From the NCBI GenBank assembly GCA_947475165.1, contig CANJLD010000023.1:1-57988 (forward strand): DNA of 57,988 nucleotides, written 5' to 3'. Each line of letters begins with the position of its first letter. The first letter of the stretch is position 1. The translations under genes were made by a program, and so were the position numbers. This document shows positions 31,695 to 32,240 of this stretch, in pieces. Source of the DNA: Bacteroidota bacterium. GTDB taxonomy: Bacteria > Bacteroidota > Bacteroidia > Chitinophagales > LD1. The notes beneath the pieces are model-generated. The model was not told where the DNA came from, did not search any database, and saw nothing but the letters and a program-made list of their open reading frames with translations.

Positions 31695-31722
31695 ACTCCG
31701 TTTCAAATCTCAAATTCAAAAT

Positions 31723-31730
31723 TATATTTG
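31723..31730 (+). promoter_or_regulatory. Duplicated tRNA-Leu promoter (-7 box TATATTTG), left copy
   Basis: TATATTTG matches TAnnTTTG exactly. It lies 12 bases before the broken tRNA copy at 31742, the same distance as in the intact tRNA locus (32132 to 32151). The surrounding AATTCAAAATTATATTTGCG is identical in both copies. In the left copy it is placed to drive the GIY-YIG gene. Confidence 0.72.
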
Positions 31731-31741
31731 CGCTCCTCAAG

Positions 31742-31830
31742 GCCCGGATGGCGAACCTGCCTGTCGGCAGACAGGACTGGTAGACGCACTACCCTGTCTG
31801 CCGACAGGCAGGTTCGAAACTCCTTTTTTT
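31742..31830 (+). pseudogene. Broken tRNA-Leu copy carrying a 20-bp inverted repeat pair
   Basis: GCCCGGATGGCGAA and ACTGGTAGACGCACTACC match the acceptor/D-arm part of the intact tRNA-Leu at 32151. Between them is CCTGCCTGTCGGCAGACAGG (31756-31775), and directly after the D-arm comes its exact reverse complement (31793-31812). GTTCGAAACTCC, a T-arm-like piece, follows. The anticodon stem-loop and variable arm are lost, so it cannot be a tRNA. The 20-mer is itself nearly palindromic. Confidence 0.85.
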
Positions 31831-31846
31831 CCACTTTATTACGAAC

Positions 31847-32101
31847 ATGCAGAAAATACAAGAACACTTTTGGGTTTTTGCTATTTCCTCGCTGCACCGG
31901 AAATATATTTATGTAGGACTAACCAACGATTTGGACAGAAGATTCAAACAACATAACACCGGACAGAATCCGACAACCAAACCATATCTCCCGTTCAAAG
32001 TTTTACATACAGAAAAATTTGCAACCAGAATAGAAGCGAGAGAAAGAGAGAAATATTTGAAAAGCGGTGTTGGAAAAGAGTTTCTAAAAACATTACTCTA
32101 A
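31847..32101 (+). CDS. GIY-YIG domain nuclease family protein
   Basis: 84 residues, a single GIY-YIG domain of the short UPF0213/YhbQ-like class. YIYVGLTNDLDRRFKQHNTGQ carries the 'YVG' half of the motif, the catalytic-type Arg (DRRFKQH) and Asn; TTKPYLPFKVLHTEKFATRIEAREREKYLKSGVGKEFLKTLL is the family's standard second half with catalytic-type Glu. The first half-motif (GIY) is degenerate (VFAISSLHRKYIY). It probably binds or nicks structured DNA. It lies between a broken and an intact copy of a tRNA-Leu gene and seems to use the duplicated tRNA promoter. Confidence 0.9.
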   Translation: MQKIQEHFWVFAISSLHRKYIYVGLTNDLDRRFKQHNTGQNPTTKPYLPFKVLHTEKFATRIEAREREKYLKSGVGKEFLKTLL

Positions 32102-32131
32102 ATATTTGCGCGGGTATTTCCAATTCAAAAT

Positions 32132-32139
32132 TATATTTG
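32132..32139 (+). promoter_or_regulatory. Promoter -7 box of tRNA-Leu
   Basis: TATATTTG, an exact TAnnTTTG match, 12 bases before the mature tRNA. A TTTG at 32105-32108 could be the -33 element. The same box is duplicated at 31723-31730. Confidence 0.72.
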
Positions 32140-32150
32140 CGCCTCTCAAG

Positions 32151-32234
32151 GCCCGGATGGCGAAACTGGTAGACGCACTACCTTGAGGTGGTAGCGCCTT
32201 AACGGGTGTAGGAGTTCGAATCTCCTTTCGGGCA
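32151..32234 (+). tRNA. tRNA-Leu (anticodon GAG)
   Basis: Acceptor stem GCCCGGA pairs with TTCGGGC, discriminator A at 32234. D arm has TGGCGAAACTGGTAGACGCA. The anticodon stem CTACC/GGTAG encloses the loop TTGAGGT, giving GAG. The long variable arm (CGCCTTAACGGGTG) is that of a class II tRNA, and the T arm is GGAG-TTCGAAT-CTCC. CCA is not encoded. A terminator follows 7 bases later. Its 5' half is duplicated at 31742. Confidence 0.95.
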
Positions 32235-32240
32235 CAAAGG

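Follow-up and report, generated by a model that had tools for sequence, protein, structure and literature searches.

A tRNA-Leu(GAG) gene interrupted by a very small GIY-YIG nuclease cassette: a probable homing-type element of a widespread bacterial family

We propose that the tRNA-Leu(GAG) gene of the Bacteroidota genome studied here probably carries a short selfish element of homing type, belonging to a widespread family whose members bring enough tRNA sequence to rebuild the target that they enter; the proposal is drawn from sequence comparison. In the window, by which we mean the whole stretch of 57,988 nucleotides that was analysed, this tRNA gene is duplicated around an ORF of 84 aa encoding a GIY-YIG nuclease, the left copy being interrupted and the right copy intact. 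The relatives occur in two arrangements: in type A the intact tRNA lies 3' of the ORF and the broken copy on its 5' side, and type B is the mirror image.

Homing with gene repair seems the most likely route, by analogy with the fungal mitochondrial elements considered below. The nuclease would cut an uninterrupted tRNA gene within an arm, namely the D arm in type A and the T or anticodon arm in type B, these putative sites being read from the positions of the palindromes only. A nuclease resembling Slx1 would suit such a stem-loop target. Repair would then copy in a cassette consisting of the palindrome, the ORF and enough tRNA sequence for one complete tRNA, and because a complete tRNA is rebuilt the insertion would not be lethal. 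A captured promoter would express the ORF in type A, and usually the tRNA as well. The palindrome would mark the point of cutting or insertion in the leftover copy and serve the nuclease as a DNA partner.

A broken and an intact tRNA-Leu(GAG) gene around a nuclease ORF

The features of the locus are collected in Table 1. A repeat search of the window gave two pairs of direct repeats, one of 53 nt (31707-31759 and 32116-32168, 91% identical, spacing 409) and one of 21 nt (31776-31796 and 32165-32185, 95% identical), together with perfect inverted arms of 24 nt (31752-31775 and 31793-31816). A 20-mer is present as two exact copies in opposite orientation, both inside the left tRNA copy, and shuffles of the window held a mean of 0.00 matches to it at up to three mismatches. 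The first palindrome follows tRNA nucleotide 14, at the start of the D-loop, and the second follows nucleotide 31 or 32. The only tRNA that ARAGORN calls in the window is the right-hand tRNA-Leu(GAG), which Rfam scores at 49.8 bits; a DNA search found no second full-length copy of it in the 3.88-Mb genome, so the cell probably depends on the intact copy. The original prediction of the repeats, the opposed 20-mers, the GIY-YIG ORF and the intact tRNA at these positions is confirmed by the repeat search, ARAGORN and Pfam. Its description of the left copy as the 5' half of the tRNA is right for the 5' part and incomplete beyond it: after the second palindrome this copy resumes in the T-arm (TTCGAAaCTCCTTT, 31813-31826, by eye), the part between the anticodon stem and the T-arm being missing. 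The promoter-like segment in front of the tRNA is duplicated too, which is unusual compared with type A relatives. It contains a box of the TAnnTTTG type, the consensus of the -7-type box in Bacteroidota.

Table 1. Positions of the features of the duplicated tRNA-Leu(GAG) locus in the window
Feature	Position	Strand	Basis
Promoter segment 5' of the broken copy, AATTCAAAATTATATTTGCG	31713..31732	+	Sequence; identical 20-mer at +409; near-same promoter in congener L142
-7-type box TATATTTG within the promoter segment	31723-31730	+	Bacteroidota TAnnTTTG type
Broken tRNA-Leu copy, nt 1-14	31742..31755	+	31742-31759 matches tRNA nt 1-18
Palindrome copy 1, CCTGCCTGTCGGCAGACAGG, at the start of the D-loop	31756..31775	+	20-mer search; site recurs in relatives
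Broken tRNA-Leu copy, about nt 15-31, D-loop to anticodon stem	31776..31792	+	Direct repeat; DNA search
Palindrome copy 2, same 20-mer on the opposite strand	31793..31812	-	20-mer search
T-arm remnant of the broken copy (TTCGAAACTCCTTT)	31813..31826	+	By eye against the intact tRNA
GIY-YIG nuclease ORF, 84 aa, UPF0213/Slx1-like	31847..32101	+	ORF call, Pfam, predicted fold
Second copy of the promoter segment, 5' of the intact tRNA	32122..32141	+	Repeats; most type A relatives have little room here
Intact tRNA-Leu(GAG)	32151..32235	+	ARAGORN, Rfam, DNA search of own genome

An RsmB-like gene lies 3' of the window tRNA and served as search query in 18 genomes of the genus, that of the window included. 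Two congeners (L142 and L143, with RsmB-like protein identities of 84% and 83%) have one uninterrupted tRNA-Leu(GAG) at the equivalent place, and no GIY-YIG ORF is seen before it in either. For the other 15 genomes, the flanks fetched around the RsmB-like gene contain no tRNA according to ARAGORN, the flank of L158 being cut off upstream. A similar comparison is offered by the genus of genome G212, whose tRNA-Arg(acg) locus is of type A, with broken copy, ORF and intact tRNA. A tRNA-Arg(acg) lies near the same flanking gene in 17 of 30 loci fetched from that genus; besides G212 itself, these comprise two (L247 and L254) with other GIY-YIG ORFs, lying downstream of the tRNA, and 14 in which none was matched at 1e-4. 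Interrupted and uninterrupted alleles of one site therefore exist in both genera, in different species and not in strains of one species. The proposal that an element entered a tRNA gene and left an intact tRNA behind it is strengthened by the two congeneric species with a single uninterrupted tRNA-Leu at this place, and by the recurrence of the same anatomy in about a hundred relatives. At one of the 14 tRNA-Arg(acg) loci (L252, genus g51), a CCCGAC/GGTCGGG hairpin replaces the anticodon arm of a tRNA-like copy before the intact tRNA, and this broken copy is possibly the scar of a lost element.

The nuclease and its relatives

The ORF of the window matches the GIY-YIG family of Pfam at 2.5e-16, no other family being found at E<=0.001, and residues Y22, G24, R32, H36 and E68 are invariant in 39 sequences, as expected of the GIY-YIG superfamily. 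Its nearest sequences of solved structure are two UPF0213 proteins. The structure model (pLDDT 93.8) comes closest to the UPF0213 protein BH0048 (4.2e-4), then to Slx1 (1.5e-3) and then to I-TevI (0.25), and NCBIfam returned nothing for the protein at 0.01. The dN/dS ratio lies between 0.05 and 0.25 in the pairs for which it was computable, apart from tandem copies without amino-acid change, and such low values indicate that the nuclease gene is maintained by purifying selection. A role in defence was rejected, PADLOC giving no match at 0.01 for the window protein and weak ones for its relative L021, as was a plasmid origin, the plasmid matches covering the tRNA part of the query only. The possibility of phage cargo was set aside, with one relative in viral contigs.

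Nucleases of this class are found at E<=1e-12 in 165 of the 396 genomes of the order to which the window belongs. Named genomes were also scanned; of the 302 relatives obtained, the best 80 were kept, and these come from Bacteroidota, Patescibacteria, Omnitrophota, Ignavibacteria and one Nitrospiraceae MAG. For the counts of adjacency, insertions, loop positions, dN/dS, gaps and promoters, similarity ends and palindrome classes, loci from the same genomes (L087, L140, L075 and L126, equivalent to L037, L021, L020 and L035) and from the same places (L031, L033 and L034) were left out; since L033 is the cassette of the window itself, those de-duplicated counts do not include the window. A tRNA lies within 300 bp of the best GIY-YIG ORF in 99 of 114 such loci, on the same strand in all 99, and the density of tRNAs within that distance is 1.236 per kb, compared with 0.018 per kb beyond 500 bp. 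The tRNA targets include Leu, Arg, Met, Glu, Ser, Phe, Val, Pro, Asp, Ala, Lys and Asn.

Among the 15 loci with no tRNA within 300 bp, L040 and L092 are tandem arrays with a tRNA further off, and five (L039, L041, L055, L058 and L081) lie near contig ends. Eight of the 15 were inspected by eye and all hold tRNA fragments with a palindrome of the CCTGCC type, Rfam finding no tRNA in these eight at E<=0.01. In L063, L093 and L127 broken copies are present and no intact tRNA was found nearby. The sample was extended beyond close relatives with 20 loci from the lower end of the nuclease matches listed for the genomes of the order. A same-strand tRNA within 300 bp was found in 15 of the 20, one of them called as Stop(tta), and each of these 15 has a further tRNA-like fragment nearby that scores above 50 shuffles; two of the remaining loci have a tRNA at 356 and 373 bp, and three have none.

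On a tree of 99 nucleases, from which the same rows were removed and in which the window protein was taken from the window itself, the tRNA isotype changes 10 times against 24.7 times when shuffled. Host groups change 16 times on the same tree, a figure that has no shuffle control, and rows from Bacteroidota and Patescibacteria are mixed. Many forks of this tree are weakly supported, with 52 of 96 inner branches drawn open. Nuclease copies from Flavobacterium and Paceibacterota share 82% protein identity.

Two further observations concern the range of the nuclease. A relative in a viral contig of IMG/VR (L189, 4-231) stands at the extreme end of the contig, one flank being cut off. No tRNA lies within 400 bp of the more distant GIY-YIG ORFs (L297-L299 and L302-L311, in genomes G172, G310, G106, G213 and G038, the last of which holds many of them).

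Broken tRNA copies and their insertions

For 101 of the 109 ORFs that lie beside a same-strand tRNA, a partial duplicate of that tRNA is present at the opposite end of the ORF; only L031, L033 and L034 were left out of this count, and four genomes figure in it twice. The 97 de-duplicated broken copies comprise 59 of type A and 38 of type B. An insertion of at least 10 nt, scored within the broken copy on one side of the ORF, interrupts 87 of the 97, and 72 of these 87 insertions contain a perfect stem of at least 6 bp, as do 4.4% of shuffles; 15 lack a perfect 6-bp stem and six lack a 5-bp stem. A half of the CCTGCC type occurs in 81 of the 87, and the exact CCTGCCTGCCGGCAGGCAGG in 34. In the 10 broken copies for which the scoring found no insertion, five (L025, L028, L115, L125 and L129) show a palindrome by eye.

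The insertions are placed in or at the edge of the D, anticodon or T loop in 89 of 106 cases, for 42.2 expected under a uniform distribution, and 31 of the 106 are at the 3' end of the D-loop. Their distance to the nearest stem/loop boundary is 0 in 50 cases and 2-3 in 41; taken together, these figures justify the wording "in or at the edge of a loop" and not "exactly at the boundary". The positions are recurrent: type A tRNA-Leu is interrupted after nucleotide 14-15 or 23 and most type A tRNA-Arg after 22, and type B copies have their insertions in the T-loop or anticodon regions. Longer broken copies, namely those of L109, L040, L103, L104 and the window, have palindromes in more than one arm.

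The main rival to homing with gene repair is a transposition-like insertion with a long target-site duplication, in which staggered nicks would duplicate the 5' or the 3' part of the tRNA around an element that itself carries no tRNA sequence. Such an event would explain both mirror arrangements together, and one intact copy would result by itself. The window favours it: the promoter of L142 is nearly that of the window, both window copies of the promoter resemble this native one, and the tRNA parts common to the two copies are nearly identical. As the duplication in the window includes the promoter, a local duplication or a long target-site duplication fits this locus better than a carried tRNA part. 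The relatives point the other way. In type A, 45 of 64 loci have the same nucleotides 1-14 in both copies, and the similarity ends within 2 nt of tRNA nucleotide 1 in 30 of these 45, within 3-12 nt in 11 and further away in four; an end so near to nucleotide 1 is hard to reconcile with random stagger, though selection for compact junctions could produce it. In addition, the broken and the intact copy differ at 3-4 of 7 acceptor bases in seven loci (L026, L072, L077, L091, L112, L136 and L138), of which L077, L091 and L112 had not passed the shuffle test of the partial-duplicate scan. As regards a possible foreign source of the restored part, the two copies are near-identical in the window and differ in their acceptor strands in a few relatives. 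We consider a long target-site duplication an unlikely explanation.

Homing with gene repair has its own implications for expression and for the fate of the rebuilt gene. The gap between the ORF match and the tRNA is at most 24 bp in 32 of 38 type A loci of Bacteroidota, and so short a gap offers a promoter little space ahead of the intact tRNA. A strict TAnnTTTG box lies within 60 nt of the broken copy in only 10 of 29 type A loci of Bacteroidota, and in front of the intact tRNA in one of the 29. In two type B loci (L022 and L063) a terminator-like hairpin, identified by eye, stands between the tRNA and the ORF and puts promoter capture in doubt at those two. The rebuilt tRNA should remain a target, and no feature conferring immunity on it was found; the tandem arrays fit re-insertion and would also fit unequal recombination.

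Palindrome classes and their distribution

The structure of the palindrome was assessed on 22 distinct 20-mers, these being the 20-nt inserts of broken copies that fit a loose pattern, with relatedness not removed. A simple full palindrome (positions 1-8 with 13-20) does not exceed shuffles in this set. Two interleaved hairpins (1-6 with 11-16, and 5-10 with 15-20) beat shuffles in cells paired, in cells changed on both sides and in covariation score (0 of 500 each), and are unremarkable on the counts of pairs or types, which the tool rates as safer (158 and 491 of 500; 127 and 127 of 500). The comparison suggests, and no more than that, that the interleaved hairpins are kept somewhat better than the simple full palindrome.

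Other nuclease lineages are paired with other palindromes, of the TCCGCC, TCCCGC, CCCGAY and AAGGACTCC types, each lineage tending to have a palindrome of its own. Palindrome class changes 7 times on the nuclease tree against 18.7 times when shuffled (minimum 16 of 200; n=107), the class labels coming from patterns set by us and not being independent of tRNA isotype; 18 of 125 rows are omitted from this count, 17 for want of a class and one for having two. Without the tRNA-Leu rows, the figures are 7 and 17.6 (n=36). Single classes span several isotypes, as with CCCGAY in Val, Asp, Arg, Lys and Asn, and genome G007 holds two nuclease lineages with two palindromes (L025 and L028).

Across the 396 genomes of the order, the 20-mer pattern is found in 65 and absent from 331, the richest genome having at most 16 matches per strand, and a reversed control pattern has no match in the same table. 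The nuclease is present at E<=1e-12 in 49 of the 65 palindrome-bearing genomes (Fisher p 1.8e-9, ignoring relatedness) and in 33 of 38 palindrome-bearing genera (p 8.8e-7, likewise ignoring relatedness). Ranked by the closeness of the genome's nuclease, closest first, the share of genomes with the 20-mer is 23/39, 8/32, 11/45 and 7/49, for 16/231 where the nuclease is missing, with a Fisher test that again ignores relatedness. A broader profile detects a nuclease in six of the 16 palindrome-bearing genomes that have no match at E<=1e-12, and in three of these six (G106, G172 and G310) the best matches have no tRNA within 400 bp. In the other 10 of the 65, all at least 96% complete, this broader profile detected no member of the class at E<=1e-6.

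These associations bear on the suggestion that the nuclease has mainly the role of spreading the palindrome through the genome, in the manner of REP/RAYT pairs, the tRNA site being merely its home. Such a role is compatible with homing and with a long target-site duplication, so its likelihood does not compete with theirs. It is suggested by palindrome class following nuclease lineage, by the greater frequency of the 20-mer in genomes with closer nuclease relatives, by the co-occurrence at genus level, and by several dispersed copies lying inside other repeats. However, the association may reflect shared ancestry, 10 palindrome-bearing genomes are without the nuclease, and the rebuilt tRNA is left unexplained. 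Moreover, 79 of the 98 palindrome places examined (the first per genome, with the two of the window counted twice, so 79 of 96) are more than 400 bp from a GIY-YIG ORF and more than 300 bp from a tRNA, from which it follows that most dispersed copies are not in cassettes. In the genome from which the window comes, the pattern occurs at six places, two of which belong to the cassette, and no GIY-YIG of the class was found within the 1.5 kb fetched on each side of the other four. We hold this role to be possible and rather doubtful. The original prediction had expected the 20-mer to be enriched near such nucleases, as is the case both for the insertions in broken copies and at the level of genomes; the partnership that it postulated between protein and palindrome stands as an association, and its REP/RAYT-like logic agrees with the pairing of lineages and palindromes and sits badly with the many copies that lie apart from any cassette and with the genomes devoid of nuclease.

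It could also be surmised that the palindromes have no part in the element and belong to a common dispersed repeat that lodges in any non-functional, hairpin-forming DNA and is tolerated in the broken copy as it could not be in the intact tRNA. Most of the examined places are indeed elsewhere, several of them in other repeats, yet the 20-mer pattern is absent from 331 of 396 genomes and reaches no more than 16 matches per strand in the richest, insertions occur in 87 of 97 broken copies, their positions recur across phyla and their classes are specific to lineages, and we judge this explanation improbable. A plain tandem duplication of the tRNA around a resident housekeeping UPF0213 gene, with no mobile element, draws on the fact that UPF0213 proteins are also ordinary chromosomal genes and is scarcely credible beside the empty sites in congeners, the patchy presence of the nuclease in the order, the many tRNA isotypes and the mixture of phyla on the tree.

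Comparison with known systems

The mechanism proposed for the tRNA-borne element resembles homing with gene repair. In fungal mitochondria, hybrid genes of atp6, atp9, cox2 and nad3 consist of an endonuclease ORF (LAGLIDADG, and GIY-YIG in atp9) together with a replacement gene end, the gene staying functional and the native end being left as a remnant (PMC3630166). The tRNA element, as proposed here, resembles these hybrids in that an endonuclease ORF is inserted with a part that restores the gene and leaves a remnant; they differ in that the fungal cases concern the 3' ends of mitochondrial protein genes, whereas here bacterial tRNA genes are restored in their 5' or 3' parts, the ORF is very small and a lineage-specific palindrome lies in the remnant (PMC3630166).

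RAYTs are tyrosine transposases of the IS200/IS605 type flanked by two inverted REPs (PMC2817692). A common feature is a small gene beside palindromes that are also scattered over the genome, the two apparently co-evolving (PMC2817692), and here too gene lineage and palindrome appear to evolve together by the count of changes in our author-set classes. The enzyme described there is a Y1 transposase, whereas the present element has a GIY-YIG nuclease, and its palindrome lies to one side of the ORF, within a broken tRNA. Flanking by inverted palindromes of the RAYT type was not found in the window, both inverted copies being on one side of the ORF. Identity with a RAYT was rejected, as there is no Y1 (IS200/IS605-type) transposase and GIY-YIG is the sole Pfam family found.

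Integrative elements with tyrosine integrases insert in tRNA genes and restore an intact tRNA. The present element likewise restores an intact tRNA, but it has no integrase ORF, its insert measures a few hundred bp, and restoration is of both 5' and 3' types. An element of the integrase type was accordingly rejected for the window, where the longest ORF in an insert of about 400 bp encodes the 84-aa GIY-YIG protein. Group I introns of tRNA-Leu carry homing endonucleases, so that a GIY-YIG endonuclease and a tRNA-Leu target are shared features, but here there is no intron and an intact tRNA stands beside the ORF. A group I intron was rejected for the window, where Rfam at the gathering threshold finds just the tRNA; in NCBIfam, two relatives (L021 and L025) resemble endonucleases of group I introns weakly, with matches that fall far short of the cut-off.

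Slx1 acts in repair, together with Slx4, as a structure-selective nuclease. Within the GIY-YIG superfamily (PMC1564403), UPF0213 and Slx1 are the groups most like the window protein, UPF0213 in sequence and both in predicted fold. A word search of that survey returned no tRNA-gene-borne class (PMC1564403). No description of such an arrangement was found in the open-access literature searched, and work in other journals may exist. We tentatively put forward, as a proposal somewhat more likely to be wrong than right, that the elements form a new class of bacterial mobile element. Its nuclease, a minimal Slx1-like GIY-YIG enzyme paired with a palindrome specific to its lineage, would act on tRNA-gene stem-loops in extruded or single-stranded form, place the palindrome at the loop of an arm and rebuild a working tRNA next to itself, on one side or the other, and the class would have spread across Bacteroidota and Patescibacteria. 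If the partnership with the palindrome is real, a class of its own may be deserved.

Should the proposal be true, it would reveal an apparently common class of very small selfish elements that live in essential tRNA genes without killing the host, point to a possible agent behind some of the palindromic repeats in these genomes, and open a way into how a GIY-YIG nuclease picks the stem-loops of tRNA genes. It would also link short tRNA fragments, GIY-YIG ORFs and palindromes, which are otherwise viewed separately.

Settings of some dispersed palindromes

Among the palindromes of the window's own genome, two exact 20-mers (L004, G000:C25:49553-49572, and L005, G000:C32:22476-22495) lie inside repeat-like sequence of the GTCATTGCGAG ... 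CTCGCAATGAC type, which we take to be a dispersed repeat. At L007 (1501-1520; G000:C2:92483-92502) a palindrome with two mismatches is in frame, by eye, near the start of a reading frame beginning MNLAIDIGNTQIKFGLF, presumably that of a pantothenate-kinase-like protein. In genus g24 (genomes G038, G051, G086 and G097; L161-L163, L190-L199, L201 and L202) the palindrome is found repeatedly inside GACACAA repeats, as if the two formed one composite repeat.
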